Shown here one piece after another: positions 820 to 46,725 of a stretch of 64,000 bases of DNA. Under the pieces are notes generated by a model. The model did not search any database. It was not told the DNA's origin and saw only the letters and a list, made by a program, of their open reading frames with translations. Position 1 is the stretch's first letter; each line of letters opens with the position of its first letter. Source of the DNA: Aquitalea magnusonii (GTDB taxonomy: Bacteria > Pseudomonadota > Gammaproteobacteria > Burkholderiales > Chromobacteriaceae); NCBI RefSeq assembly GCF_002217795.2, contig NZ_AP018823.1:4154001-4218000 (forward strand), read 5' to 3'. A program made the position numbers and the translations under genes.

Positions 820-935
820 AGAACCGCTAACAAAACCGCGTAGAGAACCCGCGCCAAGGTGCGCCGCCGCAGACAGTACATGGCGTACGGCAAGGCGGCG
901 CAACGCTGGAGCGGGGGTTTTGCTAGCGGGTCTTA
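820..935. repeat. Palindromic intergenic repeat, family A, copy 1 (longest)
   Basis: The ends are imperfect inverted repeats: AGAACCGCTAACAAAAC at the left and the complement of AGACCCGCTAGCAAAAC at the right. A GC-rich inner inverted repeat (GCGCCGCC at 861 pairing with GGCGGCGC at 894) lies inside. The right end touches the stop codon of the amidohydrolase gene, giving tandem TAG TAA stops. Shorter relatives lie at 23293-23385 and 46647-46725. It looks like a miniature non-autonomous element or a REP-type extragenic palindrome. Confidence 0.75.
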
Positions 936-1970
936 CTACGCCACGCTCTCAAAACCGGACAACACATTCACCGCATTCACGCCGATGTCCTCCACCGCGT
1001 AGCCGCCTTCCATCACGAACAGCGTGGGCAGGCCCAGTCCGCCAATGGCCTCGCCCATGCGCAGGTAGTCGGCATTTTTCAGAAGGAAGCGGGAGATCGG
1101 GTCCTGCTCGAAGGTATCCACCCCCAGCGACACCACCAGTGCGTCCGGTGCGTAGGCGGCAATCTTGCTGCAGGCATCGGCCAGGGCCGGGCCGTAGTGC
1201 GACCAGTCCGTGCCATGGGCCAGCGGGTAGTTGTGATTGAAGCCCAGCCCGGCACCCTCCCCGGTCTCGTCGGCATGGCCCAGGAAGAAGGGGTATTCCA
1301 CCGTCGGGTCACCATGCAGGGACAAAAACTGCACGTCACTGCGCTGATAGAAAATGCTCTGCGTGCCGTTACCGTGGTGGTAATCCACATCCAGAATCGC
1401 CACCCGTTTGGCGCCACGGTCCAGCATGGCCTGGGCGGCGATGGCGGCGTTGTTGAGGTAGCAATAGCCGCCCATGTAATCCGCCGCGGCATGGTGGCCG
1501 GGCGGACGGCACAGCGCAAAGGTACTGTGCCCGGTGGCCAGCATGGTATCCAGCCCGGTCAACGCCACATTGGCCGAGGAACGGATGGCCTGCCAGGTGC
1601 CGGCGGTGATCGGCACCCCGGCATCGAAGGAGTAATAGCCCATCAGGCCGTCGATGTCCTGCGGAATGCGGTCGGTGCGCAGGCCGCGCACCGGCCATAC
1701 CAGCGGTAGCGCGTCGTGGTTGCGGCCCTCGGCCTGCCACAAGCTCCAGGCCTGCTCCAGAAAACGCACATAGCCGGCGTCATGCACGCGCAACAGCGGC
1801 TCCAGCCCGTGTTCGGTGGGGGCGATGATGTCGCCCAGCCCGGTTTGCCGTACCCGCTGCAACACCATGTCGGCGCGGCTGGGCATTTCAAAGCAGGGTT
1901 TGAGAGTGCCGTCGATCAGCTCGGCATTGCCGTGGTGCAGGTGGTGGTCGTCACTGTAAATCGTCAGCAT
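936..1970 (-). CDS. aphA: Acetylpolyamine amidohydrolase (histone deacetylase family)
   Basis: The 344-residue protein belongs to the zinc-dependent histone-deacetylase fold and matches the length of Mycoplana ramosa acetylpolyamine amidohydrolase. Motifs visible are RPPGHH with the His-His pair at 159-160, LDVDYHHGNGTQ with metal ligands Asp196 and His198, Asp285 in LGVDTFEQDP, and Tyr324 in EGGYA. These sit one residue off the published M. ramosa positions. The enzyme would hydrolyse N-acetylputrescine or related acetylpolyamines to the free amine and acetate. It is the last gene of a polyamine ABC transporter operon, 80 bases after the binding-protein gene, which supports the polyamine substrate over a true lysine deacetylase role. 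The start follows AAGGAGACCTGC. Confidence 0.85.
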   Translation of the reverse strand: MLTIYSDDHHLHHGNAELIDGTLKPCFEMPSRADMVLQRVRQTGLGDIIAPTEHGLEPLLRVHDAGYVRFLEQAWSLWQAEGRNHDALPLVWPVRGLRTDRIPQDIDGLMGYYSFDAGVPITAGTWQAIRSSANVALTGLDTMLATGHSTFALCRPPGHHAAADYMGGYCYLNNAAIAAQAMLDRGAKRVAILDVDYHHGNGTQSIFYQRSDVQFLSLHGDPTVEYPFFLGHADETGEGAGLGFNHNYPLAHGTDWSHYGPALADACSKIAAYAPDALVVSLGVDTFEQDPISRFLLKNADYLRMGEAIGGLGLPTLFVMEGGYAVEDIGVNAVNVLSGFESVA

Positions 1971-2050
1971 GCAGGTCTCCTTGCCGCGGGTGGGAAGCCA
2001 GCGGCATTGTGTTGTGTTTGCAAGGGAAAGCCGGCCTCAGCCGGCAAGTG

Positions 2051-3094
2051 TCATTTCTTCAGCTTGGTCCACACCCGGTCGCGCAGGGCATTGGCCTTGG
2101 CCGAACAGTTCTTGTTGGGCACAAACAGCGCGCGCATGGCAGCGGTGGGGTTGATGGCCGGGTCGGCCTTGAGGTCGGCGACAAAATAGGCCGAGCTGCC
2201 CTTGATGGCGTTGTTGTAGCCGGTGAAGTTGGAGGCTTCGGCGATATTCTTCGGCTCCATCATCCAGTTGATGAACTTGAGCGCGTTATCGCGGTTTTTG
2301 GCACCTTTGGGGATCACCAGATTGTCGTTCCAGAACGGGATGCCTTCTTTCGGATAGACAAACACCGCCGACTTCAGCTTCTGGCGGGTGCGGTAGGCGG
2401 CACCATTCCATTGCTGGTGCATGATGACTTCCTGCGCCTGCATGCGCTCGATGGTGCCGTCGGAGTTATACATGGCCAGCATCGGCTTTTGCGCTTCCAG
2501 CAGGTCCTGGATGCGCTTGGCCTGCTTCGGGTCTTCGGTACACTGGTCCACTTTCAGGTAGATGGCGGCGGCCTTGTACAGCTCGGCCACGTCATTGAGC
2601 GCCACCACCTTGCCCTTGAGCGCGGCCGGCGGGGTGAAGAAGCTCCTCCAGCTATTGTCCAGCTTGCCGCCCGGCACGCGGCTGGCGTCATAGGTAAAGC
2701 CGGTCACGCCCCACATATAAGGTGCGGAGTATTCGCGTTGCGGGTCGAAGTCCGGCTTGTTGAGCGGAGCCTGCACCAGCTTGAAATTGGGCATCTTGCT
2801 GACGTCGATTTTTTCCAGCAGGCCTTCGTCGCGCATGATCTTCACCATGTAGTCGGACGGCACCACCACGTCATAGCCCTTGGCCCCGGCCTTCAGCTTG
2901 GCCAGCAGGGATTCGTTGGAATCAAACACATCCAGGTTCACCTTGATGCCGGTTTCCTTCTCGAAGCGCTTGAGCAAATCCTGCGGGATGTAGTCGGACC
3001 AGTTGTACAGGTTCAGCTCGCCCCCGGCCATGGCCGAGGCGGATACCAGCAGACCAGCCACCAGGGCCAGCGAATGCAGTTTGCAGACTTTCAT
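2051..3094 (-). CDS. potD: Polyamine ABC transporter, periplasmic binding protein
   Basis: A 347-residue PotD/PotF-type solute-binding protein. A signal peptide starting MKVCKLHSLALVAG ends at about SAMAG, followed by ELNLYNWSDYIPQDLL, the usual start of the mature polyamine-binding protein. The phrases VFDSNESLLAKLKAG and YSAPYMWGVTGF are closer to PotD than to PotF. The start at 3094 is chosen because AAGGAG precedes it by eight bases; an upstream in-frame ATG lacks a ribosome site and would bury the signal peptide. It would capture putrescine or spermidine in the periplasm and deliver it to the permeases encoded just upstream. Confidence 0.9.
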   Translation of the reverse strand: MKVCKLHSLALVAGLLVSASAMAGGELNLYNWSDYIPQDLLKRFEKETGIKVNLDVFDSNESLLAKLKAGAKGYDVVVPSDYMVKIMRDEGLLEKIDVSKMPNFKLVQAPLNKPDFDPQREYSAPYMWGVTGFTYDASRVPGGKLDNSWRSFFTPPAALKGKVVALNDVAELYKAAAIYLKVDQCTEDPKQAKRIQDLLEAQKPMLAMYNSDGTIERMQAQEVIMHQQWNGAAYRTRQKLKSAVFVYPKEGIPFWNDNLVIPKGAKNRDNALKFINWMMEPKNIAEASNFTGYNNAIKGSSAYFVADLKADPAINPTAAMRALFVPNKNCSAKANALRDRVWTKLKK

Positions 3095-3160
3095 GGCATT
3101 TCTCCTTCGTATGTTGTGCAACAAGCGAAACATGAGGGGCGGAACAGCCGCCGACCCGGT

Positions 3161-3949
3161 TCAGGACTTGCGCTGGCCCATCCAGTAGGACAGCGCGACA
3201 AAGGCAATGGACACCAGCAGCATCAGCGCCGACACCGCATTCACTTCCGGGGTGATGCCCATGCGGATCAGGCCGAAGATGTACACCGGCAGCGTGGTGG
3301 CACCGGCACCGGCCACAAAAAAGGTGATGACGAAATCGTCCAGCGACACGATGAAGGCCAGCATGGCGCCGGACAGCACGCCCGGCAGGATCAAGGGCAG
3401 GGTCACCCGGCGGAAGGTGGCAAACGGCCCGGCGTACAGGTCCGCCGCGGCTTCCGCCAGCCGTGGGTCCAGCCCTTCCAGCCGGGCGCGGATAGGCAGG
3501 TAGGCAAAGGGAATGCAGAACACGGTGTGGGCAATCAGCACCGTCATCAGCCCCAGGTCCAGCCCCAGCGCCAGGAAAAACAGCAAGGACGCCACGGCAG
3601 TGACAATTTCCGGCACCAAGAGCGGCAGGCCCAGCATGGCATTGATGAAGGCCTGGCCGCGAAAGCGCCTGCCCGCCATGGCCAGCGCCGCCATGGTGGC
3701 AAAGCTGGTAGCCAGCACCGTGGCACCGCAGGCGATGATCAGCGAGTTTTTGGTGGCCCGCAGGATGTTGTCGTTGTCCATCACCTTCAGATACCAGTCG
3801 AAGGAAAAACCGGTCCACAACGTGGCAATGCGGTTGGCGTTGAAGGACAGCACCACCAGCACCACGATGGGCAGGTAGAGGTAGACAAAGGCCAGCATGG
3901 CGGTGGGGGTGACGCCACGGAAGCGCCACAAGTTATTGCTTGCCTGCAT
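3161..3949 (-). CDS. potC: Polyamine ABC transporter, inner-membrane permease (PotC type)
   Basis: A 262-residue protein with about six hydrophobic segments. It carries the EAA loop typical of binding-protein-dependent permeases: LAEAAADLYAGPFATFRRVTLP, around residues 170-190, which contacts the ATPase. The family is BPD_transp_1, PotC/PotI branch. ATG at 3949 follows GGGAGAA and lies one base after the stop of the preceding permease, so translation is coupled. It forms the channel with the PotB-type subunit. Confidence 0.9.
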   Translation of the reverse strand: MQASNNLWRFRGVTPTAMLAFVYLYLPIVVLVVLSFNANRIATLWTGFSFDWYLKVMDNDNILRATKNSLIIACGATVLATSFATMAALAMAGRRFRGQAFINAMLGLPLLVPEIVTAVASLLFFLALGLDLGLMTVLIAHTVFCIPFAYLPIRARLEGLDPRLAEAAADLYAGPFATFRRVTLPLILPGVLSGAMLAFIVSLDDFVITFFVAGAGATTLPVYIFGLIRMGITPEVNAVSALMLLVSIAFVALSYWMGQRKS

Positions 3950-3950
3950 G

Positions 3951-4841
3951 TCATTCTCCCGGAGGGCGCTGGAAGCGCCTGGTGTAAACCCCCATCGCCA
4001 GCAGCACCAGTGCCAGCAACATGAAGGACAAGGCAGCACCGAACGGCCAGTTACGCGCGGTACCAAACTGGTTCTGGATCAGGTTGCCTATCATCAGGCT
4101 CTTGCCGCCGCCCAACAGCTCGGGGATGTAATAGGAGCCGATGGCCGGAATGAACACCAGCAGGCAGCCCGCCACGATGCCGGGCATGGCCAGTGGCAGA
4201 ATCACCCGCCGCAGCGCCTGCCAGCGGTTGGCACCCAGATCGAACGCCGCTTCCACCAGCCGCCAGTCCATTTTTTCCAGACTGGTGTAGATGGGCAGCA
4301 CCATGAAGGGCAGGAAGGAATAGACAAAGCCGATGGCCACCGCCGTGGGGGTGTACAGCACATCCAGTGCGCCCTGACTCAGGCCCAGCGCCGACAGGCT
4401 GCTGTCGATCAGCCCGCCATTGCGTAGCAGCAGCATCCAGGCGTAGGTGCGTACCAGCAGGTTGGTCCAGAAGGGGATGGAAATCAGCAGGATCAGCCGC
4501 TGGCGGGTTTTTTCCTCTTTCAGCGCAATGTACAGCGCGGTGGGAAAGCCGATCAGCAGCGTCACCACCGTGGCAAAACCGGCCAGCAAGAACGAACGGC
4601 CGAAGATTTGCAGGTAATCGCTGTTGAGCGTCAGGCTGTCGTCCAGATCGCGCTCGTACAGAAACTGCACATAGGCATCCAGGCTCCATTCATGCCAGCG
4701 CACGCCGCCGTAGGTGTCCGGGGCCAGCACCGACATCCAGGCCATCAGCAGCATGGGCAGCACCATGAATAACAGCAGGGTGAGCGTGGTGGGAGCCAGC
4801 AGCAGCTTGCGGCGCAAGCGCCGTTGCGGATCAAGCGACAT
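3951..4841 (-). CDS. potB: Polyamine ABC transporter, inner-membrane permease (PotB type)
   Basis: A 296-residue permease with six predicted membrane spans. The first hydrophobic stretch is [19 protein letters not shown], and the EAA loop near residue 210 reads [19 protein letters not shown]. The start MSLDPQRRL at 4841 gives the normal PotB/PotH length. The frame is open for another 122 codons upstream, but that part overlaps the ATPase gene and looks non-coding. The start overlaps the end of the ATPase gene by 11 bases, as in tightly coupled transport operons. Confidence 0.9.
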
Positions 4842-12536: not shown

Positions 12537-12704
12537 TTATTGACTCGCCCCACTCGCTTTCAGCAAACAAAGCGAAGCGCCCGTACCGGGTAAGGGTGGA
12601 GGGATAGGGAATAGATGGGAAGGCGGCGGAAGAAACAGCTTAATCGACAGGCCCGGCTTTGCCGGGCCCGGTGCAATCGCACCACATCACGTTGTCAGCC
12701 GCCT
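12537..12704 (+). repeat. Structured intergenic repeat, family B, copy 1
   Basis: The core runs from AGGCGGC at 12621-12627 to GCCGCCT at 12698-12704, which pair with each other. Inside are a hairpin GGCCCGGC-TTT-GCCGGGCC and a small hairpin GGTGC-AATC-GCACC. To the left a CTCGCTTTC box and GGGAATAGATGGGAAGG are shared with copies at 26395-26553 and 54875-55018. In this copy the closing stem has a G-C pair where the others have T-A. It lies downstream of the pepP gene. Confidence 0.75.
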
Positions 12705-12705
12705 G

Positions 12706-12754: not shown

Positions 12755-14143
12755 TTACATCTGCATGATGGCTTCCAGCTCTTCCACGGTTTTGGGAATC
12801 GGTTCGCCCAGCACCCGGCTGCCGGTTTCCGTCACCAGCACATTGTCTTCAATGCGGATGCCGCCAAACCCGCTCATGTCGGCAAAGCGCGCGTAGTTGA
12901 TGTACTGGCTGTGCCGGCCCTCGGCCTGCCAGGCGGCAATCAGTGCCGGAATGAAATAAATGCCCGGCTCCACCGTCAGCACCATGCCGGCTTTCAATGC
13001 CTTGCCCAGCCGCAGATAAGCCAGGCCGAACAGCGGGCTGCGCTGCACGCTGTCGTCATAGCCCACCAGCTCCTCGCCCAGCCCTTCCATATCATGCACG
13101 TCCATGCCGATCTGATGCCCCAGGCCGTGCGGGAAGGCAATGGCATAAGCACCCGATTCGACAATCTCCTCCACCGGGCCATGGAAGAAGCCCAGCGCAC
13201 GCATACCCTCCACCATCACCGCTGCGGCCAGCTTGTGTACATCCAGGTAGCGCACGCCCGGCTTGATGGCGGCAATGGCCTGCAACTGCATGTCCAGCAC
13301 AATGTTGTACAACTCGCGCTGTTGCTGGTTGAAACGCCCGCCCACCGGGAAGGTGCGGGTGATATCGCTGGCATAGCCGCCGCCCGAGCTACAGCCGGTA
13401 TCGTTCAATACCAGATCGCCCTTTTGCAGCACATTGTCGTGGGCATGGTTGTGCAGCACCTCGCCCCGGCGCGAGAAAATGGAAGGATAAGCCAACTGCC
13501 AGTCGTGACGGCGCATGATGCCTTCCATGATGCCCACCACCTGATGCTCCACCACGCCCGGACGCGAAGCCTGCATCGCTGCCACGTGCATGGCTCCGGT
13601 CACCGCCAGCGCGGCTTCCATTTGCGCCACCTCTTCCGCGCTCTTAATTTCACGCAGCGCCACCACCGCACGGGTCAGCGCAGGGGAAAACCCAGCCGCC
13701 ACCTCGGCCGGATGCACAGCCAGCAGGCGGCCCAGCTCCAGCTTGGTCTCGCCACGGTAGGGGGCCAGATAATGCACAGTGCGCCCGGCGGCACGGGCTG
13801 CGGCCACGGCCTGCTCCAGCGCGGCATAAGGCTGGCTGTGGCTGATGCCGGCAGTGGCAGCACGCTCGGCCAGCGTGGGCTGCGGCCCGGTCCACACAAT
13901 GTCGGCCACCTCCGGCTCACTACCGAACAAGGTGGTAGTGCCTGCGGCAGTGTCGATCAGAGCCGCCATGCCCGGCTGGTTCTGGCCAAAGAAGTAGCGG
14001 AAGCTGGAATCCTGCACAAAGGGAAAGATGTTGTCGTGGTAGTTCATCGGCGAATCCACATTGCCGACAAACAATAACAGGCTGTCCGGCATGGACTGCT
14101 GCAGCGCACTACGGCGCTGCTGATAGGTAGCAGCAGAAAACAT
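12755..14143 (-). CDS. pepP: Xaa-Pro aminopeptidase, M24 family
   Basis: The 462-residue enzyme has the AMP_N domain up to about residue 130 followed by the pita-bread peptidase domain. The five dimetal ligands are visible in LNDTG, SDITRTFP, HGLGHQIG, VEPGIYF and RIEDN. It removes an N-terminal residue preceding proline and is cytoplasmic. ATG at 14143 follows AAAGGAGGG; the preceding GTG is an unlikely alternative. A degraded copy of its first 50 or so codons lies at 16318-16495, part of a local tandem duplication. Confidence 0.92.
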   Translation of the reverse strand: MFSAATYQQRRSALQQSMPDSLLLFVGNVDSPMNYHDNIFPFVQDSSFRYFFGQNQPGMAALIDTAAGTTTLFGSEPEVADIVWTGPQPTLAERAATAGISHSQPYAALEQAVAAARAAGRTVHYLAPYRGETKLELGRLLAVHPAEVAAGFSPALTRAVVALREIKSAEEVAQMEAALAVTGAMHVAAMQASRPGVVEHQVVGIMEGIMRRHDWQLAYPSIFSRRGEVLHNHAHDNVLQKGDLVLNDTGCSSGGGYASDITRTFPVGGRFNQQQRELYNIVLDMQLQAIAAIKPGVRYLDVHKLAAAVMVEGMRALGFFHGPVEEIVESGAYAIAFPHGLGHQIGMDVHDMEGLGEELVGYDDSVQRSPLFGLAYLRLGKALKAGMVLTVEPGIYFIPALIAAWQAEGRHSQYINYARFADMSGFGGIRIEDNVLVTETGSRVLGEPIPKTVEELEAIMQM

Positions 14144-14525
14144 CACTTACCCTCCTTTATCTGGCCATACCATCAGCGCAAGTGCCGGCTAGCTGGCATT
14201 TTATGGCGGAAAATCGCACAAACTGCGGATTGTATACAGAACAGACACTGTACACGGCCAGCCTGAACATGACCAGTGCAGTCACGCTTCTTCCCATGCC
14301 CGTGCAGTGAACAGCACAAAAATCACAGCATCATTGCCAACAGTTGGCCTGTCACTACCGATATTTGTGCAATATCCAAAATTTAATAAGAATTTTCTTA
14401 TTGAATTAACACAAATGGCGATGATAATTTCATTAAAATTAAAATATTGTCATAATTTGGTTATAAAACACGCATGCTAGTTTATATCCCTAGCTAGATA
14501 GTGGCCCCAGATCAAACAAAGGGGC

Positions 14526-14860
14526 AAGTTAATAACTTTGCTATCACCAATGCAACATGTAGCGTCCAGTTTACCCATGATCAGCAGCAAGTCCTTGCCA
14601 AAAACCAACAGCACCAGTGGTGCAGACACCATTTTGGTTAACCGTTAATTGTCCAAGTCAAAATGCATTGGCAATTACCTTTACTGATGATAACAATATC
14701 ACTCAAACGGGTTGCACTAACCCCGGAAAACAATTCTACAGCCAAAGGCATCGGCATGCTGTTACGCTACCTTAGCTGCCTTCATTTTCTTTAGTGCTGA
14801 CTCTGTAGTTGCAGTTAACATCAGCCAGATCAAACTGGCCTCTGTTACCGACTAACAAAC
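14526..14860 (+). pseudogene. Remnant of a fimbrial adhesin C-terminal domain
   Basis: No long frame survives, but pieces in shifting frames match the two intact adhesins downstream. TPFWLTVNCPSQNALAITFT at 14626-14685 parallels the NCP...NITFTDNN segment of both genes. A frame change then gives STAKGIGMLLRY, parallel to SIAEGVGIQLQY, and later FSADSVVAV, parallel to FGPDSAEPG. At least two frameshifts and several stops are present. It is best read as a third, older copy of the adhesin gene that has decayed. Confidence 0.75.
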
Positions 14861-15054
14861 CAAGCCATTCAGCGTGGCATAGTCTCAACAATATCATTTC
14901 TCAAAAATGAATAATAATTTCCACGACAATAGTGACAAATATTTATTACTGTTAAGCATGCTTAATTTAAATAATCTATTATTATACTTAATTGACCAGT
15001 ACTTCAGCGTGAGGATGACTTTCCATTGTAACGACGGCATTGAGGACATACAAA

Positions 15055-16173
15055 ATGAATATTACTTATCTCGTAAAAACCTGTAGCATTAGCATACTCA
15101 TACGCCCATTCAAACTGGCAGTAGTTTTTCATGCTCTTGTAAAGAAAAAAATTTATTCTACACACCTGATAATATTACTTACTTTCTTGTATGCTGCACC
15201 TGCATTTGCTTCTTGCAGCCCCTCCATGAATATTAAAACATCCATTCCTAATATCGCTCTCAATTTAAACAGCATTCCCGTCAACGGACAAATTGGAAGC
15301 GAATTCACCTCAGATACCAATATCGCAGTCAGTTGCAATGCAAGCGACGCGGTAAGAAGATTTAATCTTTGGACCGCACCCAATACTGCCGTTACCTCAG
15401 TAAATGGAATAAATATATACAAAACAAACAATCCAGGCATTGGTTTCGCATTTGGGTTTGAGCCAACTAATTTCTGCACATCCGTCGGTACAGTATGGAT
15501 GACTGGCAGTTTCAGCAATCTAGCCAAGCCGGTTTGCGATGATAGCCTATATCTTAATAAGGATTATAATTATATGGGTAGATTTCATTATATTTTATAT
15601 AAAATAAGCCCAACCATCACCAATGGTCCCACATCTTTGCCAAGGCCTAATTATGGCCTTTTCACAGAATATACCAATGCAACCAATGGACAAGGTGGAT
15701 ATTTCATGTCATCCCCCAGTTCGCCATCATTTTCGGTTACTGCAAGCACATGCAAACTACTAAGTTCCAGCATCCGTGATATTAAGCTTCCCACCATATC
15801 TATTACTTCCTTACCCAGCCGAGGTAGTCGGGCTGGTAATACTAATTTTAATATCATTGTCAACTGCCCCAGTCTTACCAATCTTAACATCACCTTCACC
15901 GATAATAATAATCGCAACAATACCGGTACGATGCTGACCCCAACTTTGTCATCCATCGCCCAGGGCGTGCGTATTCAATTACAATACAACGGTAATATCA
16001 TCAAATTTGGCCCAGACTCTGCCGAGCCCGGCACTACGGGACAGATTGTGCTGAATTCCAATCTTGCCGGCACGCAAACTTTCCCGTTTACCGCATCGTA
16101 TATTCGTACCGGAGCGTCCCTCAAGCCAGGCTCTTTGACATCCGCTGCCACCTTTACCCTGTCCTACCAATAA
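15055..16173 (+). CDS. Fimbrial adhesin-like protein, copy 1
   Basis: A 372-residue exported protein with a long N-terminal region and a signal peptide ending near APAFA. The mature part has a variable N-terminal domain (NLNSIPVNGQIGSE, GIGFAFGFEPTNFC, RFHYILYKIS) and a C-terminal pilin domain with NCP, ITFTDNN, IQLQYNG, FGPDSAEPG and the terminal ATFTLSYQ strand used in donor-strand exchange. This is the two-domain plan of chaperone-usher tip adhesins. ATG at 15055 follows GAGG. No chaperone, usher or major pilin gene is in the window, so it is an orphan or is served by a distant cluster. The gene is much more AT-rich than its neighbours, which hints at transfer. Confidence 0.75.
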   Translation: MNITYLVKTCSISILIRPFKLAVVFHALVKKKIYSTHLIILLTFLYAAPAFASCSPSMNIKTSIPNIALNLNSIPVNGQIGSEFTSDTNIAVSCNASDAVRRFNLWTAPNTAVTSVNGINIYKTNNPGIGFAFGFEPTNFCTSVGTVWMTGSFSNLAKPVCDDSLYLNKDYNYMGRFHYILYKISPTITNGPTSLPRPNYGLFTEYTNATNGQGGYFMSSPSSPSFSVTASTCKLLSSSIRDIKLPTISITSLPSRGSRAGNTNFNIIVNCPSLTNLNITFTDNNNRNNTGTMLTPTLSSIAQGVRIQLQYNGNIIKFGPDSAEPGTTGQIVLNSNLAGTQTFPFTASYIRTGASLKPGSLTSAATFTLSYQ

Positions 16174-16178
16174 AAAAA

Positions 16179-16202
16179 GGCCGCTTGCACATGCAGGCGG
16201 CC
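16179..16202 (+). terminator. Terminator of adhesin copy 1
   Basis: GGCCGCTTGC pairs with GCAGGCGGCC around ACAT, five bases after the stop codon. The same hairpin, with a better U tract, follows adhesin copy 2, so the terminator was duplicated with the gene. Confidence 0.8.
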
Positions 16203-16224
16203 ATTGCTTTGTCTGGCACAATTT

Positions 16225-16317
16225 TCAGTTTTTACCCTGTATCACCGGCTTACTGGCCAGCGTGCTTTCGGAGCGCGCCTTCAAGAGCCAGCTTGTGCTG
16301 CCACCGGCCAGCACCGC
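16225..16317 (-). pseudogene. Duplicated 3' end of benE
   Basis: On the minus strand the last 31 codons read AVLAGGSTSWLLKARSESTL and ASKPVIQGKN-stop, against AVLAGGSVSWLLKARPKSTP and ASKPVMQGKN-stop in the intact benE at 17912. There is no start and no upstream part. It ends abruptly at about 16317, where sequence like the start of pepP takes over. It is a fossil of a tandem duplication rather than a gene. Confidence 0.88.
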
Positions 16318-16495
16318 CGTGCCCGGCGGGGTCTGGTCAAAGAAATAAGCAAAGCGGGAATCCTGCACAGAGGCAAAAGATGCTGTCGCGGAAGTTCATC
16401 CGTATATCCACATTGCCGACAAACAACAACAGTCTTTCCGGCATGGACTGCTGCAGCACGCTACGGTGCTGTTGGCAGGTGTCCGCAGAAAACAT
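16318..16495 (-). pseudogene. Duplicated 5' end of pepP
   Basis: From ATG at 16495 the minus strand reads MFSADTCQQHRSVLQQSMPE then RLLLFVGNVDIRMNF, against MFSAATYQQRRSALQQSMPD and SLLLFVGNVDSPMNY in the real pepP. A frameshift follows and a stop ends the frame after about 55 codons. Similarity continues upstream of the ATG to about 16580, matching the region upstream of pepP. It joins the benE fragment at about 16317. Confidence 0.88.
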
Positions 16496-16815
16496 CGCTC
16501 ATACTTCTTTACCCGGCTACTCCATCAATACAAGCACCATGCCACATGGCAGTTTATTGCGTGCGATATCGCAAATTTCTCACTCCATACCAAATTAGCC
16601 ACTACTCTGGTGCATTAACCACTAGTCAATTTGCGACAATCAAGAATTGTCCAATATTTTTCAGGAAAAATCACCGACTTTGCATAATTCAATCTAACTA
16701 AAATTAAAAAATTCAACCCGCCTTGGCAAAATCAAATAAAACACGCTGACAAGCCCCCTTGCCCCATCAATGAAATCACAATATTTCACATTAAACACAA
16801 TTAAAAGGAAACCAT

Positions 16816-17862
16816 ATGAAGCATTCTATATGCCGCTCCGTCGGTATAGTTTTGCTACGTAACACAAATTATCTTTTTATATTAATTACGATGTCTATTT
16901 TTATTGCACAAACAGCTTATGCCACCTGTACAGGAGGTGAAGTCATCATTCGTATTCCGGACCTTAATTTCAATGTAAACAATATTCCACTGAAAGGTAA
17001 GATTGGCAGTGAAATCATTACGCCAGAGCAATCACTAGGCTCGTGCAAGGCCACCGGCACCGAAAACCCTGGCCTTGCATATCGAACAGTAGCTGATCAA
17101 GGGATCAGCTCAAGCGTGATCATGGGAAAGAATATTTATACAACCAGCGTTCCTGGCATTGGCTACACGATTGGATTAGAACCCACTAACTTTTGCTTGG
17201 GAAATGGAATTTATTGGGTTCCCTTTGTCACCTGCAAAATACCTGTCAGCGGTAAAAATACTATGTCATTCAATGCCAAACTCCATTTCCAGCTTTACCG
17301 GATTGGCACCATCAGCAATGCCACCAACATAACCATTTTCAGAAATAATTTTGGATTAAGAGAATATAATGAATGGGATACCACTATGACACTCGTACTT
17401 ACCTACCAGTCATCCTATCCATTTAATATGACTGTCAACACCTGCAGCTTACAATCAGCCAGCATTAGCAATATCAATCTTCCAAAGATATACAGCAATG
17501 CCTTGCCCAGCATCAATAGTCGTGCAGGCAGCACGCCATTCAGCCTGACGATTAATTGCCCGAACAATACCAATCTGAACATTACCTTTACCGACAATAA
17601 CAAAATTGGCCAAACTACAAATGTTCTAACTCCGGACGCTACCTCCATCGCTGAAGGCGTGGGCATTCAATTGCAATACAACGGTAAAATCATCAGCTTT
17701 GGCCCTGACTCTGCCGAGCCCGGCGCTACTGGACAGATTATGCTGAACTCCAACCTTGCTGGCACGCAAACCTTCCCGTTTACCGCATCGTATATTCGTA
17801 CCGGTGCGTTGAAGGCAGGTTCTTTGAAATCCACCGCCACCTTCACCCTGTCCTACCAATAA
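16816..17862 (+). CDS. Fimbrial adhesin-like protein, copy 2
   Basis: A 348-residue paralogue of the gene at 15055. The signal peptide ends near TAYA; the N-terminal domain shows NVNNIPLKGKIGSEI, GIGYTIGLEPTNFC and LHFQLYRIG, and the C-terminal pilin domain is nearly the same as in copy 1 over the last 100 residues (IQLQYNG, FGPDSAEPGATGQI, TFPFTASYIRTGA, ATFTLSYQ). The N-terminal, presumably receptor-binding half differs strongly between the copies. ATG at 16816 follows AAAGGAAACC. It is AT-rich compared with the genes around the island. No chaperone-usher genes are nearby. Confidence 0.75.
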   Translation: MKHSICRSVGIVLLRNTNYLFILITMSIFIAQTAYATCTGGEVIIRIPDLNFNVNNIPLKGKIGSEIITPEQSLGSCKATGTENPGLAYRTVADQGISSSVIMGKNIYTTSVPGIGYTIGLEPTNFCLGNGIYWVPFVTCKIPVSGKNTMSFNAKLHFQLYRIGTISNATNITIFRNNFGLREYNEWDTTMTLVLTYQSSYPFNMTVNTCSLQSASISNINLPKIYSNALPSINSRAGSTPFSLTINCPNNTNLNITFTDNNKIGQTTNVLTPDATSIAEGVGIQLQYNGKIISFGPDSAEPGATGQIMLNSNLAGTQTFPFTASYIRTGALKAGSLKSTATFTLSYQ

Positions 17863-17864
17863 AA

Positions 17865-17892
17865 ATGGCCGCTTGCCCATGCAGGCGGCCAT
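17865..17892. terminator. Bidirectional terminator between adhesin copy 2 and benE
   Basis: ATGGCCGCTTGC pairs with GCAGGCGGCCAT around CCAT. Eight T residues follow on the plus strand and an A run precedes it, so it can stop both the adhesin and the converging benE transcripts. Confidence 0.88.
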
Positions 17893-17911
17893 TTTTTTTC
17901 TGACTCAACGC

Positions 17912-19174
17912 TCAGTTTTTTCCCTGCATCACCGGCTTGCTGGCCGGCGTGCTTTTGGGGCGCGCCTTCAAGAGCCAGCTTACGCTGCCCCCGGCCAACA
18001 CCGCCCACAGCGGTGAACCCAGCCCGGCGATGGTGACACCCGATGCAGCCACCACAAAGGTGAGCAAGGCGGCTTCGCGGTGGCCTTCGTCCATCAAGGC
18101 GGCGGTAAGCGATGAGGCCAGTGTGCCGAACAGCGCCAGTCCGGCGGCAGTCACCACCAGCGCCTTGGGCAGCAGCAGCACCAGGCCGGCCAGTGCGCCA
18201 CCGGCAATGCCCAGCACGATGTAGAGCGCACCGCACACCAGTCCGGCCATATAGCGGCGTTGCGGGTCCGGGTGGGCTTCCGGCCCGGTGCAGATGGCGG
18301 CGATGATGGCCGCCAGCGTCACGCCATGCCCGCCCAGCGGGGCGGTGATGACCGAGGCCAGCCCCAGCACGGTAACGGGCGAACGGGCCGGAATGTGATA
18401 ACCGGAAGCAGACAGCACCGCCATGCCGGGCAGAAACTGGCTGGTGAGCGCCAGCAGTGCCAGCGGCAAGGCCAGGTTGACGAAGGCCGTCCACGACCAC
18501 TGCGGCATGGTGAACAAGGGGCCGCTGCTGCCCTGCCAGCTACCCGCCGTACCATACATGCCTTGCCAACTGGCAATGGCCAGCCCCAGGCCAATGGCGG
18601 CCAGCAGCGCAAAGCGTGGAAACAGCTTGCGGCCGATGAAGAACAGCACCGTCATCGGCACCACCAGCAGCGCCTGCTGGCTGGCCTCCCCGGCCACGTC
18701 GGCAACAAAGTGGAACAGGATGCCACCCAGCATGGCGGCAGCCAGCGAGGCCGGGAAAATCTTCATCAGCTTGTCGAAGGCACCGCTCACCCCCACCAAG
18801 GTGACAATGACGGCAGCGGCCAGAAACGCTCCCACTGCCTCGCCATACGGCACGCCGGGCAGCGCGGCCAGCAGCAGCGCCGCACCGGGCGTGCTCCAGG
18901 CGGTAATCACCGGCACGCGCCAGCGCAGCGTCAGCCAGATACCGGCCACACCGGAGGCAATGGACACCGCCCACACCCAGGAGCCAAGCTGGGCGGCACT
19001 CAGCCCGGCAGACTGGGCGGCATGCACAATGATAAGAAAGGGGCCGGAATAACCCACCAGCAGTGCCAGCACTGCGGCAAGCCCGGCCGAAGGCGAGAAA
19101 TGGGACCAGCTGAACGGCACACGATCAGCATGCGTCTGGCTGGCAGCGGACTCTCGCGGGGAAAGCGTGGACAT
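17912..19174 (-). CDS. benE: BenE-family benzoate/aromatic transporter
   Basis: The 420-residue membrane protein has about 12 hydrophobic segments and the BenE hallmarks VPVITAWSTPGAALL, FPASLAAAMLGGILF, and TAPLGGHGVTLAAIIAAICTG. BenE proteins are proton symporters described for benzoate, but many occur outside benzoate clusters and their substrate is open. ATG at 19174 follows CTGGAG. It is divergent from a MocR-type regulator 114 bases away. A partial copy of its 3' end lies at 16225-16317. Confidence 0.88.
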   Translation of the reverse strand: MSTLSPRESAASQTHADRVPFSWSHFSPSAGLAAVLALLVGYSGPFLIIVHAAQSAGLSAAQLGSWVWAVSIASGVAGIWLTLRWRVPVITAWSTPGAALLLAALPGVPYGEAVGAFLAAAVIVTLVGVSGAFDKLMKIFPASLAAAMLGGILFHFVADVAGEASQQALLVVPMTVLFFIGRKLFPRFALLAAIGLGLAIASWQGMYGTAGSWQGSSGPLFTMPQWSWTAFVNLALPLALLALTSQFLPGMAVLSASGYHIPARSPVTVLGLASVITAPLGGHGVTLAAIIAAICTGPEAHPDPQRRYMAGLVCGALYIVLGIAGGALAGLVLLLPKALVVTAAGLALFGTLASSLTAALMDEGHREAALLTFVVAASGVTIAGLGSPLWAVLAGGSVSWLLKARPKSTPASKPVMQGKN

Positions 19175-22530: not shown

Positions 22531-23295
22531 ATGATCATTCTCAATCAGCGCCAGCAAGAACTGCTGGGCATCGTCCATCGCGAAAGCTATGTCACCGTGG
22601 AAAAGCTGTCCGCCCATTTTGGCGTCACCCACCAGACCATACGCCGCGACATTGCGCTGATGGCGGAACACCAGCTGCTGCAGCGCTATCACGGTGGTGC
22701 CAGCGTGCTGTCCAGTGTGGAAAACGTGGCATACAACGCCCGTCAGGTGCTGTGCATCGAGGAAAAGCGCCGCCTGGCCGCGCTGCTGGCCAAGCAGATT
22801 CCTGACAATGCCTCCTTGTTCATCAATATCGGCACCACCACCGAGGAGGTGGCCAAGGCACTGCACCGCCATCGCGGCCTCAGGGTGATCACCAACAACC
22901 TGCACGTGGCCGACATGATGTGCGACTACCCGGATTGCGAGGTCATCGTGCTGGGCGGCGTGCTGCGCAAGCGCGACCGCGGCATCACCGGCGAAGCCAC
23001 GGTGCAGCTGATCCGCCAGTTCAAGGTGGACTACGGCATCATCGGCATCTCCAGCATCGAAAACGATGGCGTGCTGCGCGATTACGACTATCGTGAAGTA
23101 CGCACCTCGGAAGCCATCATCCAGCAATCGCGCCAGGTGCTGCTGGCGGCGGATCATTCCAAGTTCGGCCGCCCGGCGCTGGTGGAACTGGGCCATCTGT
23201 CGCAGGTGCATGCGCTGTTTACCGACAAGCCGGTGCCGCCGGAAATGCAAGCGGTGATTGCCGAAGCAGGTACCCAGTTGTTTGTCGCCGACTGA
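22531..23295 (+). CDS. glpR: DeoR-family glycerol-3-phosphate regulon repressor
   Basis: A 254-residue DeoR regulator. The N-terminal helix-turn-helix reads YVTVEKLSAHFGVTHQTIRRD, and the sugar-phosphate sensor domain includes INIGTTTEEVAKAL, VITNNLHVADMM and GITGEATVQLIRQF. The helix and sensor phrases are typical of GlpR, which represses glp genes and is released by glycerol phosphate. glpD, glpF and glpK lie 3-8 kb to the right. The stop TGA is the first triplet of a family A repeat. No strong ribosome site precedes ATG 22531. Confidence 0.85.
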   Translation: MIILNQRQQELLGIVHRESYVTVEKLSAHFGVTHQTIRRDIALMAEHQLLQRYHGGASVLSSVENVAYNARQVLCIEEKRRLAALLAKQIPDNASLFINIGTTTEEVAKALHRHRGLRVITNNLHVADMMCDYPDCEVIVLGGVLRKRDRGITGEATVQLIRQFKVDYGIIGISSIENDGVLRDYDYREVRTSEAIIQQSRQVLLAADHSKFGRPALVELGHLSQVHALFTDKPVPPEMQAVIAEAGTQLFVAD

Positions 23296-23385
23296 GACCC
23301 GCGAAAAAGCCGCCTTGCCGTACTGGCTGTACTGTCTGCGTCGGCGCGCCCAGGCCCGGATTTTCTGCGAGGTTTTGTCAGCCGC
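23293..23385. repeat. Palindromic intergenic repeat, family A, copy 2
   Basis: The element begins with the TGA stop codon of glpR (TGAGACCCGC) and ends in GGTTTTGTCAGCCGC. Its centre GCCGCCTTGCCGTAC...CTGTACTGTCTGCG is almost the same as the inner arm of copy 1 at 820-935, but about 15 bases of the outer left arm are missing. Confidence 0.75.
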
Positions 23386-23452
23386 GCTGCACGAACCTCT
23401 GCCACATCAAGCTGCCAAAAACTGTTGCAGCCCGAATGTTGAGGAGCCACAC

Positions 23453-26394: not shown

Positions 26395-26553
26395 GATTAC
26401 TCTCGCTTTCTGCAAGGAAAGCGAGGCTCCCTTGCAGGGCAAGGGCGGGGGAATTGGGAATAGATAGAAAGGCTGCGGAATCAGACAGTAAATCGAAAGG
26501 CCCGGCTTTGCCGGGTCCTTTGCAATCGCACCAAATCACTTTGTCAGCAGCCT
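26395..26553 (+). repeat. Structured intergenic repeat, family B, copy 2
   Basis: Closing stem AGGCTGC at 26470-26476 pairs with GCAGCCT at 26547-26553. The inner hairpin is GGCCCGGC-TTT-GCCGGGTCC and the small TGCAATCGCA hairpin follows. The left part carries CTCGCTTTC and GGGAATAGAT as in the other copies. It lies downstream of glpD. Confidence 0.75.
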
Positions 26554-26620
26554 GGGCCTACGGGAGGAGATGGGCGCAAGCCCTGATACAACAAGATACG
26601 ACCACAACAAATCGTGACGC

Positions 26621-40886: not shown

Positions 40887-40968
40887 CGCGCAGATGGCAG
40901 ACAAAGCACTTGCCAGCAGCAACCGAGCCGGCACATAAACGGCAGGACCACCACTCCAGCCCAATCGC

Positions 40969-41550: not shown

Positions 41551-41642
41551 ACCACATTCCACCGCTTGTTTGACCAAGGGGTTTGCCAAAGCCGGGCCGG
41601 CATGATTAGGCTTGGCACTTGTCTGCTTCTTTTCTGGATGTC

Positions 41643-41942
41643 ATGAAACCTGTCGATCTGATCAAGGGCCTGCTGGCCATCGTGCTGGCGCTGGCTTTTC
41701 TGCTGTGGCTGTACGGCACGTTCACCAACCAGCCGGATTTCGTTACGGCGGCAATGTGGCTGGGTGATGCGCTGGTAATGATTCCGGCCTATCTGATTCC
41801 CGCCATCACCGCCTGGCTGGTGAAAAGCCCGCGCCTGAAAACCATTGTGCTCATCAATGTGCTGGGCGGCTGGCTGCTGATTCCCTGGATCATCGCCATG
41901 GGCATGGCCATCAAGCGTGACGACTTGCGCACCCAGGACTGA
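41643..41942 (+). CDS. Small membrane protein, possibly superinfection-immunity family
   Basis: The 99-residue product has three hydrophobic segments: IKGLLAIVLALAFLLWLYGT, ALVMIPAYLIPAITAWL and TIVLINVLGGWLLIPWIIAM. The last phrase resembles the superinfection-immunity (T4 Imm) family of small inner-membrane proteins, but the match is by eye. It ends in a short basic tail. ATG at 41643 has a weak GGAT site. No phage genes are nearby. Confidence 0.6.
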   Translation: MKPVDLIKGLLAIVLALAFLLWLYGTFTNQPDFVTAAMWLGDALVMIPAYLIPAITAWLVKSPRLKTIVLINVLGGWLLIPWIIAMGMAIKRDDLRTQD

Positions 41943-41996
41943 CGCCGCCGTGTACGCAGCTTGATGGCGGCGGCAGCCTTCCCGTAAGCTGCCGCC

Positions 41997-43121: not shown

Positions 43122-43150
43122 CATCCCGTCCCGCCATTCCACGCAAAAAA

Positions 43151-43176
43151 GCCCGGTCACCGTGACGGTGCCGGGC
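43151..43176 (-). terminator. Terminator of hutH
   Basis: GCCCGG and CACCG pair with CGGTG and CCGGGC, with one bulged base. The minus strand continues with six T residues, 25 bases after hutH. Confidence 0.85.
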
Positions 43177-43200
43177 CAAGCTCCTGATGACTAGCCGTGC

Positions 43201-44733
43201 TTACAAAGAGGGCAGCAAGCCAGCCGCGACAAAGCGGTTGTAACTGCCGCTGGCCACCAGCGCAGCGGCCTTTTCGATATCCGGTGCGAAGTAGCGGTCC
43301 TTGTCGTAGAACGGCACTTGCGCACGCAGTTCGGCCTTGGCTTCTTCCAGCTTGGCGCTGGCCTTGTGCGGGGCGCGGAAGTCCACACCCTGGCAGGCAG
43401 CCAGCAGTTCCACGGCCAGAATGCCGGCGGTGTTACCGGCCATATCGCGCAGACGGCGACCGGCAAAGGTGGCCATCGATACGTGGTCTTCCTGGTTGGC
43501 CGAGGTGGGCAGGCTGTCCACCGAGGCCGGGTGCGCCAGCGATTTGTTTTCCGAAGCCAGGGCCGCACCGGTGACCTGGGCAATCATGAAGCCGGAGTTC
43601 ACCCCGCCATTGTTCACCAGGAAGGGCGGCAGCTTGGACAGGTTGCTGTCGATCAACAGTGCCATGCGGCGCTCGGACAGCGAGCCGATTTCGGCAATGG
43701 CCAGCGCCAGGTTGTCGGCGGCAAAGGCCACCGGCTCGGCGTGGAAGTTGCCGCCGGACAGGATGTCGTTGTCGTCGGCAAACACCAGCGGGTTGTCCGA
43801 TACCGAGTTGGCTTCCACTTGCAGCACGCTGGCGGAGTGACGGATCTGCGTCAGGCAGGCACCCATCACCTGCGGCTGGCAGCGCAGGCTGTACGGGTCC
43901 TGCACCTTGCCGCAGTTTTCGTGCGAGTGTTCGATTTCGCTGTGTTCCAGCAGCGCACGGTAGGCGCTGGCGGCATCGATCTGGCCGGCATGGCCGCGCA
44001 CGGCGTGGATGCGGGCGTCAAACGGGGTGCGGCTGCCCTGCGCGGCTTCCACCGACATGGAGCCTGCCACCACGGCAGAGGCAAACAGGTCTTCGGCGGC
44101 AAACAGGCCTTCCAGCGCAAAGGCGGTGGAGGCTTGCGTGCCGTTGAGCAGGGCGAGGCCCTCTTTCGGGGCCAGGGTGATGGGCTGCAGACCGGCAGCC
44201 TGCATGGCTTCACGGCCATGTACGCGCTGGCCGTTGACGAAGGCTTCACCCTCGCCGATCAGCACTGCGCTCATGTGCGACAGCGGGGCCAGGTCGCCGG
44301 ACGCGCCCACCGAACCCTTTTGCGGAATCACCGGGTAGATGCCGTGGTTGAACAGCGTGACCAGCGCTTCGATCACCTGACGGCGGATGCCGGAGAAACC
44401 ACGCGCCAGCGAGTTGATTTTCAGTGCCATCACCAGACGCACGGTGGAATCATCCATCGGCGCGCCAATACCGGCAGCGTGCGACAGCACGATGGAACGT
44501 TGCAGCAGTTCCAGCTCGTCCGGTGCAATGCGGGTATTGGCCAGCAGGCCAAAACCGGTGTTGATGCCATAGGCGGTGCGGCCTTCGGACAGCACGCGTG
44601 CCACGGTGGCGGCGGAAGCGTCGATGCCGGCGTGGCAGGACGGGTCCAGTTGCAGCTTGAGGCCGGTTTCACGTGAAACGCGGCGCAGGTCGGCCAGTGT
44701 CAGTTGGCCCGGTACGATATGGAGAATGCTCAT
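43201..44733 (-). CDS. hutH: Histidine ammonia-lyase
   Basis: The 510-residue enzyme removes ammonia from L-histidine to give urocanate. The MIO-forming Ala-Ser-Gly is at 144-146 in [14 protein letters not shown], and the catalytic tyrosine is in [11 protein letters not shown] near residue 55. MIO forms autocatalytically, so no other factor is needed. A parS-like palindrome at 44665-44680 lies in the first 25 codons. It is the last gene of the hutI-G-U-H order. The start at 44733 is the only one giving full length; its ribosome site is weak. Confidence 0.94.
44665..44680. other. parS: parS-like ParB-binding site 3
   Basis: GGTTTCACGTGAAACG contains the full perfect 14-base palindrome GTTTCACGTGAAAC, matching the parS core exactly. 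It lies inside hutH. Confidence 0.82.
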
Positions 44734-44908
44734 GGTTTCAGTCTCTATTGATTGTCAGCTGGCCTCACGCCCGCAGGCGTGGCCGGATATGTTCTTGTTG
44801 TAGCGCCTGCCCTGCCGCCGATGCCAGGGCAATGGCGCTGATGACGTGATTTCTGCACAGAGAATGCCCGCGGCAAGGTAAGGCCGGATCGGGCATGCTC
44901 TACCCGGC

Positions 44909-46591
44909 TTATTTCAGCATCGGCAGGTCCAGGCCCTGCTCACGCGCGCAGTTTTTGGCGATGTCGTAACCGGCATCGGCATGACGCATTACACCGGTAC
45001 CCGGGTCGTTACGCAGTACACGGCCCACGCGCTTGGCGGCTTCGTCCGTACCGTCACACACAATCACCACGCCGGAGTGCTGCGAGAAGCCCATGCCCAC
45101 GCCACCACCGTGGTGCAAGGACACCCAGGTGGCGCCGCCAGCGGTATTCAGCAGGGCGTTGAGCAGCGGCCAGTCGGACACGGCATCCGAACCATCCAGC
45201 ATGGATTCGGTTTCGCGGTTGGGCGAAGCCACCGAGCCGGAGTCCAGATGGTCGCGGCCAATCACGATCGGCGCCTTGAGTTCGCCATTCTTCACCATTT
45301 CGTTGAAAGCTGCACCCAGACGGGCACGGTCTTTCAGGCCCACCCAGCAGATACGTGCCGGCAAGCCCTGGAAGCTGATGCGCTCACGCGCCATGTCCAG
45401 CCAGTTGTGCAGGTGCGGGTCATCCGGAATCAGTTCCTTCACCTTGGCGTCGGTCTTGTAGATGTCTTCCGGGTCGCCGGACAGCGCCACCCAGCGGAAG
45501 GGGCCGATGCCTTCGCAGAACAGCGGGCGCACATAGGCCGGAACAAAGCCGGGGAAGTCGAAGGCATTCTCTACGCCCTCTTCCAGCGCCATCTGGCGGA
45601 TGTTGTTACCGTAGTCCAGCGTGGCGGCACCGCGCTGTTGCAGGGTCAGCATGGCGCGTACCTGCACGGCCATGGACTTTTTGGCGGCAGCGGTGATTTC
45701 AGCGGCGTCGGTCTTTTGCTTGGCGCGCCATTGTTCCACCGTCCAGCCTTGCGGCAGATAGCCGTGTACCGGGTCGTGAGCGGAGGTCTGGTCGGTCACC
45801 ACATCCGGGGTGATGCCACGGTTCACCAGCTCGGTGAACACATCGGCGGCATTGCCCAGCAGGCCGACGGACACCGCCTTGCCGCTTTGCTTGGCGTCTT
45901 CGATGATGGCCAGCGCCTCGTCCAGCGATGTGGCCTTGCGGTCCACGTAACGGGTTTTCAGGCGGAAGTCGATGCGGGTTTCATCACATTCCACGGCGAT
46001 CATGCTGAAGCCGGCCATGGTGGCAGCCAGCGGCTGGGCACCACCCATGCCACCCAGACCACCGGTCAGGATCCAGCGGCCTTGCGGCTTGCCGTCGAAG
46101 TGCTGGTTGGCCACGGCAAAGAAGGTTTCGTAAGTCCCCTGCACGATGCCTTGCGAGCCGATGTAGATCCAGGAGCCGGCGGTCATCTGGCCGTACATCA
46201 TCAGGCCCTTCTTATCCAGCTCGTTGAAGTGTTCCCAGTTGGCCCAGTGCGGTACCAGGTTGGAGTTGGCAATCAGCACGCGCGGCGCGTCGGCGTGGGT
46301 GTTGAACACGCCCACCGGCTTGCCGGACTGGATCAGCAGGGTCTGGTCGTCTTCCAGACGCTTGAGCACGTCCAGGATGGTGTCGAAACATTCCCAGTTG
46401 CGGGCAGCGCGGCCGATGCCGCCATATACCACCAGGCTTTGCGGATGCTCGGCCACTTCCGGGTCCAGATTGTTCTGGATCATGCGGTAGACGGCTTCGG
46501 TCAGCCAGCTTTTGCAGGAAAGTTCGGTGCCGCGCGGGGCGCGGATCACACGGGTCGGGTCAAAGCGGCTGTCTTGTTGTGCTGCGCTCAT
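44909..46591 (-). CDS. hutU: Urocanate hydratase
   Basis: The 560-residue NAD-dependent enzyme converts urocanate to imidazolonepropionate. It starts [20 protein letters not shown] and contains [50 protein letters not shown] and [20 protein letters not shown], all standard for urocanase. ATG at 46591 follows AAGGAG. It lies between hutG, separated by a family A repeat, and hutH. Confidence 0.95.
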
Positions 46592-46646
46592 TGCTGTCTC
46601 CTTGGTACTGCCATGTTGTCGGGCAACTGCCCTGAATTCCTTACCG

Positions 46647-46725
46647 GGAACCGCTGACAAAACCCCGCTCCAGCGTTGCGCCGCCTTGGCACGGGTTCCC
46701 TACACGGTTTGCTTAGCGGTTCTTA
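46647..46725. repeat. Palindromic intergenic repeat, family A, copy 3
   Basis: Read on the minus strand it begins TAAGAACCGCTAAGCAAAC, where TAA is the stop codon of hutG, and ends GGGGTTTTGTCAGCGGTT. It equals copy 1 at 820-935 with the central 37 or so bases (the inner inverted repeat) missing. It fills most of the hutG-hutU gap. Confidence 0.75.

Follow-up and report, generated by a model that had tools for sequence, protein, structure and literature searches.

A short repeat at stop codons in Aquitalea and its sister genera: a miniature transposable element with probable kinship to the Correia family

Why should a short palindromic repeat begin exactly where genes end? This question is raised by a stretch of 64,000 nucleotides from the chromosome of Aquitalea magnusonii (NZ_AP018823.1, positions 4,154,001 to 4,218,000), referred to here as the window. 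The original prediction, made from the sequence alone, had recognized three copies of a repeat family in it, each with one end at the stop codon of a gene, and had proposed that either an insertion mechanism targets stop codons or the repeat serves as a 3' end structure. The family is real and no chance similarity: the repeat gave 53 blastn matches (E up to 1) on the window's own complete chromosome of 4.85 Mb, and two matches to a 23-base end pattern (up to three mismatches) in the window contrast with none in 100 shuffles. Taken as a whole, the data are best explained by a Correia-related, non-autonomous miniature inverted-repeat transposable element (MITE) that is mobilized by an IS5-family insertion sequence (IS), collects at stop codons duplicated upon insertion and is selected there in one orientation, termed B below. 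We consider this account probable. Genomes and loci carry G and L numbers, respectively, with G000 denoting the window's own chromosome.

The element, its target and a likely mobilizer

Matches to the repeat occur in 21 of the 41 relatives searched, including all ten genomes of the window's genus (Aquitalea). The exact 17-base end pattern was found in 96 stretches of the named genomes, and among the 80 of these that were listed, 72 belong to Aquitalea, Chromobacterium, Vogesella and 'Neisseriaceae bacterium TC5R-5'; the other eight are single hits in unrelated organisms and were taken for chance. From these blast and pattern matches, two samples were drawn, neither of them exhaustive, and all elements were selected as having end pairs. 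The first sample comprises 177 copies, which reduce to 146 sites once orthologous sites are merged, and the second 62 copies, 28 of them already seen, with 31 new sites. Merging relied on flank similarity and may have fused separate Chromobacterium sites that share a flanking repeat. Copies with more than six mismatches over both ends or close to a locus edge were left out of the counts, as were the eight loci of unrelated organisms and 16 further stretches (L336–L351). Genes were called by a home-made caller based on codon usage, which gives approximate calls in place of a standard annotation.

The full-length element, present in 116 of 177 sites, measures 112 bp and reads GASCCGCTAACAAAACC ... 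GGTTTTGTTAGCGGSTC. It is short, has no coding capacity and is bounded by inverted ends of 17 bp (GASCCGCTAACAAAACC). With the best-preserved copy taken for each of the 177 sites (Aquitalea, Chromobacterium, Vogesella, TC5R-5), the flanking trinucleotides are TAA/TAA in 58 cases and TTA/TTA in 48, i.e. 106 identical TWA pairs compared with six mixed ones; without this choice, the 177 copies of the first sample include 53 TAA/TAA, 46 TTA/TTA and two TAA/TTA pairs. Since both outer ends agree on the same strand, the flanks represent a 3-bp target-site duplication. The bases just beyond the duplication are likewise biased, which gives YTWAR as the target, with TWA being duplicated. Variants of 134 bp (L441, L419, L443, L446) carry an extra 22 bp resembling an inner inverted duplication, and on the window's own chromosome three diverged copies (L013, L016, L028; G000:C1:4340641-4340980) follow one another head to tail.

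Relatives also offer empty sites, as the original prediction had proposed to check. At a stop codon, the element occupies the TAA of one gene at L052 (G004) and L264 (A. aquatica), and the same gene in A. magnusonii (L273) codes for 180 aa and ends in a single TAA, free of the element. Intergenic empty sites with a single TWA are provided by L292 compared with L239 and by L031 compared with L342. L141 was dropped as an empty counterpart of L266, as it holds an apparent remnant of the element; the comparisons of L141 with L266/L347 and of L072 with L277 gave no clean TWA and were not counted. Inverted ends, target duplication and unoccupied sites in related genomes, together with an autonomous element of sister genera that shares these ends, show the repeat, as far as sequence can tell, to be a MITE.

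This autonomous counterpart is exemplified by two 864-bp elements in G011 with the same 17-bp ends as the MITE. Insertion sequences of 863–864 bp in G011, G012, G015, G047, G058 and further genomes have ends identical or almost identical to these, and their flanks are mostly TWA. One of the G011 elements contains two open reading frames (ORFs), one with a match to PF13340 (DUF4096) and the other with matches to PF01609 (DDE) and PF13586. Both match NF033580 (IS5-family transposase), with ORF B exceeding the cut-off and ORF A narrowly missing it, and relatives of ORF B (E up to 1e-30) occur in 16 of the 61 genomes of the family, with 14 matches in G047. The MITE itself is devoid of a transposase and has only the ends in common with the IS; these shared ends point to an IS5-family transposase as its likely mobilizer in trans. 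In C. haemolyticum (G023; L186–L200, L205), many contigs end about 100–340 bp inside an IS5-family element, and hence the IS is multicopy there and breaks the assembly.

Stop codons and orientation

Among the 146 sites of the first sample, 66 are located at stop codons (56 in-frame stops and ten TTA overlapping a stop), 77 are intergenic, three concern genes that end inside the element, and none lies inside a called gene. The 31 new sites of the second sample are divided into 13 at stops, 17 intergenic ones and one with a gene that ends within the element. Where an in-frame stop is occupied, the gene-side copy of the duplication, a stop by definition, is TAA in 65 of 68 cases and TGA in three, while the far copy is TAA in 40 of 68. 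Background frequencies were derived from these loci with an identical gene caller. Of the 62 noncoding Aquitalea sites, 40 are at stops, compared with 9.5% of TWA and 18.5% of YTWAR sites; the corresponding values are 13 of 30 (5.9% and 8.1%) in Chromobacterium, eight of 17 (9.7% and 18.4%) in Vogesella and five of 34 (5.2% and 8.8%) in TC5R-5, a genome with 51% GC. In the pooled control of the second sample, stops make up 12 of 185 noncoding YTWAR sites. The preference for stop codons, which the original prediction had named as its test, is strong among the sampled copies. A TWA target combined with the loss of gene insertions is by itself insufficient to account for it, since merely 8–18.5% of noncoding YTWAR sites are stops.

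A different picture emerges when the expectation is derived from the intergenic region in which each element resides, with TWA sites weighted by their outer bases (ten of 143 sites had no such region and were skipped). Over all 133 insertions, 65 are at stops compared with 58.9 expected (P=0.02), and in regions that offer both stop and non-stop sites, 31 of 57 are at stops compared with 24.9 expected (P=0.02). Within a region, stops are used only slightly above expectation, and strict stop-codon targeting is not supported as the main cause. As this excess is small, the coincidence with stops stems mostly from the choice of region. The proposed targeting of stop codons hence holds indirectly, in that TAA stops are one class of YTWAR sites, but not in its strict form. 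Elements at stops reside in regions with a median length of 31 bp (convergent) or 85 bp (tandem), compared with medians of 112–247 bp in the other classes, and 15 of the 61 Aquitalea elements are in convergent regions, compared with 8.4% of the weighted control sites. This is the pattern that a loss of promoter and gene insertions would be expected to leave.

At the occupied stops, the element is strongly oriented. Orientation A is that of copy 1 on the + strand of the window and is read along the gene whose stop is occupied. In the first sample, 51 copies at stops are in orientation B and 15 in A (p 1e-5), with ratios of 32:7 in tandem and 19:7 in convergent settings; the second sample contributes 11 B and two A (p 0.02), which amounts to 62 B and 17 A over 79 sites (p 3.6e-7). 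This bias is absent in intergenic copies. In the first sample, these number 38 B and 39 A when referred to the TAA strand, and those in tandem regions 24 B and 22 A when referred to transcription; both samples together amount to 44 B and 50 A. An asymmetric GC content of the flanks was discarded as the cause, the gene side of stop sites being merely 0.01 richer over 100 bp.

Orthologous copies were compared in 38 pairs (37 without the row of the non-orthologous L141/L266) that group into 18 sites, rows dominated by repeated flanks being excluded. At three of the 18, both orientations are found in different species: at the hutG gene described below (L037 compared with L054 and L109), at a second site (L004 compared with L279 and L388) and, less surely, at a third one with one flank only 75% alike (L325 compared with L451). 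These sites could have arisen by inversion in place or through replacement by another copy (gene conversion), which would look identical. An orientation that is changeable in place and lasts at about 4:1 only at stops points to selection, and the bias suggests that such selection acts at gene 3' ends. The proposed role as a 3' end structure gains support from this bias, which intergenic copies lack.

The three copies in the window

The copies and the genes that they adjoin are arranged as follows.

818..820, no strand assigned: left target-site duplication TTA of copy 1 (pair TTA/TTA)
821..932, + strand: MITE copy 1, full 112 bp, orientation A on the + strand (blastn match; fold z −4.8/−6.7)
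933..935, no strand assigned: right duplication TTA of copy 1, which reads TAA on the gene strand and follows the TAG stop immediately (from the sequence; near-empty site L469 in G001)
936..1970, − strand: gene for 344 aa, its TAG stop (936–938) abutting copy 1 (no NCBIfam match)
22531..23295, + strand: glpR-like gene, DeoR/GlpR regulator (best NCBIfam match below cut-off)
23293..23295, + strand: TGA stop of the glpR-like gene, probably the mutated left duplication of copy 2 (TAA plus element in G001)
23296..23387, + strand: MITE copy 2, internally truncated inside the left end, orientation B relative to the glpR-like gene
46648..46722, − strand: MITE copy 3, internally deleted between direct repeats of CAAGG, orientation A with respect to hutG
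46723..46725, no strand assigned: right duplication TTA of copy 3, equal to the TAA stop of hutG
46723..47658, − strand: hutG, formimidoylglutamase, 311 aa (TIGR01227, E 1e-94, over cut-off)

All three copies adjoin or coincide with stop codons as originally described, the coordinates having been off by one to three bases, and at copy 1 the reported succession of TAG and TAA is confirmed by a TAG that directly adjoins the duplicated TAA. Relative to the minus-strand gene at 936–1970, copy 1 is in orientation B, as is copy 2 relative to its gene, and copy 3 is in A. Copies 1 and 3 are indeed opposite to each other on the window (+ and −), and the ends have proved usable in either orientation. 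Concerning the gene names initially assigned, hutG stands, glpR has to be softened to glpR-like, and aphA, given to the 344-aa gene, finds no counterpart in NCBIfam. Compared with shuffles, copy 1 folds very stably on either strand and copy 3 moderately so (z −2.1), the truncated copy 2 folds no better than its shuffles (z 0.8), and Rfam at gathering thresholds yielded no match in the window.

Close relatives illuminate the history of each site. In G001, the site of copy 1 (L469) has the same flanks, lacks the element and shows one TTA before the same gene end, with a 5-bp difference. At the site of copy 2, the element is absent in G002, G006 and G007; it follows TGA in the window, G003 and G005. 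G001 keeps TAA plus the element there, and the TGA of the glpR-like gene is therefore probably a mutated TAA duplication. The hutG site holds an element in G001, G002, G003, G005, G006 and G007 and a diverged one in G009; at the hutG end in G004, no element was seen. The element of G006 is reversed relative to that of G001, and G007 has a short form similar to the one in the window. Copy 3 itself has lost its left duplication. Its internal loss was correctly recognized, but instead of a clean removal of the inner inverted repeat of copy 1 it is better seen as a deletion that took out about 37 bp between direct repeats of CAAGG; short forms of this kind recur among other copies. The original TAA of hutG is lost in G002 (L462), G005 (L054) and G007 (L457), and in G005 the gene ends at a TGA within the inverted end of the MITE, so that the stop codon is supplied by the element. 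From the window, only copy 1 entered the counted sample, as intergenic, because the TAG that precedes the duplication is the gene's stop. Copy 2 exceeds the mismatch limit, and the hutG site is represented by the ortholog L054 in the class of genes ending inside the element.

Other repeats are found nearby. A second intergenic repeat of about 153 bp (window 12553-12705, 26402-26554 and 54867-55019; 71–80% identical to the reference copy) has one end that reads GGCTGCTGACAAAGT inward in two copies, somewhat like a MITE end. Repeated stretches of 69–166 nt (D2, D3, D7, D15; 80–89% identity, 1.7–2.4 kb apart) lie within 13958-18005, a region in which no gene was called from 14.1 to 17.9 kb. Yet another repeat, with a start like GAGCCTGTTCAAAGTCTCGCGAG, abuts the MITE copies L122, L123, L126, L127 and L485 in Chromobacterium; a repeat of this type is also located just behind the glpR-like gene in G004 and likewise adjoins TAA/TTA.

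Competing explanations and relation to known systems

How could such a distribution arise? An IS5-family transposase would move the MITE in trans. As the target that is duplicated may happen to be a stop codon, insertion into TAA would regenerate the stop and leave the gene end unchanged. The same would apply to a TTA that overlaps a stop (T-TAA or T-TAG), where TAG would be recreated because the element usually begins with G. Insertions into coding DNA would be lost, in line with the finding that no sampled copy lies within a called gene. Where a genome is compact and GC-rich, the stop frequently ranks among the few targets that a short intergenic space has to offer, and surviving copies would collect there. 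Orientation B would then be favored, most likely by selection on the effect that the element exerts at the RNA level behind the stop, i.e. on decay, processing or termination.

Several observations weigh against this account. In Aquitalea, the search for ORF B relatives (E up to 1e-30) gave a partial match in G009 and none in G000–G008, along with degraded DUF4096 matches in G000 and G009; since the IS was not found whole in this genus, present-day mobilization there is unsupported. The trinucleotides flanking 26 IS copies (15 identical, ten TTA/TAA mixed, one other) lend weak support to the idea that the IS duplicates TWA; the mixed flanks could have arisen by recombination between copies. 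By gene call, one of the 26 IS copies is at a stop, and a plain ORF test places four of 20 IS copies at stops compared with 55 of 98 MITE copies (p 0.006), and therefore shared targeting alone fails to explain the pattern of the MITE. Slow selection is not shown either, as neither the stop fraction (29 of 52 young and 21 of 43 old copies) nor the orientation bias (B:A 24:5 and 18:8) rises with divergence; an effect of age on either quantity was sought and not found. Furthermore, the intergenic copies of the second sample lean to A (six B, 11 A), and the orientation of intergenic copies shows a weak preference with regard to flank GC (mean 0.026 over 100 bp, p 0.024). Finally, a simple scan for intrinsic terminators (GC stem plus T run) of 600–1200, the region of copy 1 only, found 0 compared with 0.8 in shuffles.

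A transposition machinery that targets stops as such, for example via translation termination or a DNA feature of gene 3' ends, would readily produce stop fractions of 2.6 to 5.3 times the noncoding YTWAR background, as observed in Aquitalea, Chromobacterium and Vogesella, and in Aquitalea alone the within-region excess, small as it is, persists (40 observed, 35.8 expected, P=0.01). However, where both kinds of site are on offer the elements take stops hardly more often than expected, more than half of the sites in the first sample (77 of 146) are intergenic and bear the same TWA duplication, and the IS with the same ends is rarely found at stops, which renders such a machinery unlikely. A rather different idea is that the element has become an adapted 3'-end module, with a hairpin that in orientation B sets the 3' ends or the stability of transcripts and with useful copies being kept. 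This would fit the orientation bias in both tandem and convergent settings, the sites held in both orientations by different species, the very stable fold of copy 1 and the several stop-codon copies common to more than one species. There is also a precedent, as passages of PMC2229807 describe that the orientation of ERIC elements decides the stability of the upstream mRNA. Yet between orthologs the element has diverged about as much as its flanks, and hence no constraint on the element's sequence is visible; truncated copies persist at stops too, among them the poorly folding copy 2; and purging of a harmful orientation A would explain the bias equally well. We therefore regard the adapted module as a tentative option. 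REP/BIME-type palindromes, spread by a tyrosine transposase and placed by chance, would share with the repeat that it is extragenic, palindromic, abundant and sometimes tandem, but inverted ends, target duplications and empty sites are features of a transposon and an IS5-family partner exists, so that this origin appears highly improbable, although no search was aimed at the REP-associated tyrosine transposase named in the original prediction.

A broader scenario might be entertained with due reserve: several families of the order would harbor Correia-type mini-transposons as one wide family, with a single conserved core and different ends from different transposases, and in Chromobacterium, Aquitalea and Vogesella the element would act as a portable 3'-end module that docks by stop duplication and is kept in the one orientation that sets mRNA 3' ends or stability. 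For a transposon, a stop codon that is targeted and duplicated, with the first base of the element restoring a stop, would be a low-cost way of inserting into genes. The insertion of a MITE or IS into stop codons is not described in the titles and abstract openings of the literature searched, outside of which most subscription journals lie. Moreover, the bias at stops, together with the two-orientation sites as natural controls, makes it possible to test directly if 3'-end elements of mRNA are recruited from MITEs.

The closest known relatives are the Correia elements of Neisseria (CREE/NEMIS). With the Correia repeat from PMC5039591 as the query, 14 stretches of viral contigs were retrieved, in which complete Correia-type elements of 106 bp and 155–156 bp were found. 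The 106-bp CREE of L356 aligns to Aquitalea copies with up to 87.5% identity over 56 bp (67 bits; E 1e-14 in a search of the 146 MITE sites), compared with at most 29 bits for 30 shuffles. The two thus have a homologous core and a similar size, and both have TAACAAAA in the inner portion of the inverted repeat; inversion in place is likewise described for CREE in passages of PMC10969869. They differ in the outer inverted repeat, GASCCGC compared with TATAGTGGAT, and in the host family. In the alignment, the MITE does not have the 26-bp Correia repeat TATAGTGGATTAAC... (from the text of PMC5039591) as its ends. Whereas TA termini are reported for CREE in the relevant passage of PMC2229807, the MITE is flanked by a 3-bp TWA duplication, and CREE are located mostly just upstream of genes according to a passage of PMC10969869, while the MITE occurs at gene 3' ends and stop codons.

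Of 300 genomes taken from across the order, 28 contain a core pattern, GCAGACAGTACA-N4-GTACGGCAAGG, with up to one mismatch; they represent 18 of 134 genera. The same pattern reversed, which served as the control, is missing from all genomes listed; a 2.8-Mb genome of another family (G315) has 78 core matches. Around the core, the ends resemble one another in several elements and are different in others, and they differ between some families, which makes a common core with exchanged ends likely. In the part of PMC5039591 considered here, CREE are called unique to Neisseria, and a passage of PMC2229807 from 2007 treats their mobilization as a hypothesis without experimental support. The only relevant paper found for Correia elements and Chromobacterium, PMC2911385, uses C. 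violaceum only as an outgroup in the portion seen. The relationship links Correia elements to MITEs for which an IS5-family partner can be identified in sister genera, whereby the mobilization of elements of the Correia kind becomes testable.

Further parallels exist to more distant systems. Members of the IS427 group have two overlapping ORFs with a frameshift motif and mostly 2-bp duplications, as stated in passages of PMC3281130; the IS described here also has two ORFs, but the duplication comprises 3 bp, and the likeness to IS427 is one of organization only. ERIC of enterobacteria are also small mobile hairpins at gene 3' ends whose orientation matters to the upstream mRNA (passages of PMC2229807 and PMC10969869). 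These passages make no mention of a coincidence with stop codons, and the likeness is one of description, not of sequence. Similarly, the R0 and R2 repeats of Pseudomonas fluorescens are MITE-like, and their bias toward tail-to-tail genes has been read as selection (passages of PMC2718517). They reside in other hosts, a duplication of stop codons is not mentioned in those passages, and the comparison with the MITE is again one of description, not of sequence.

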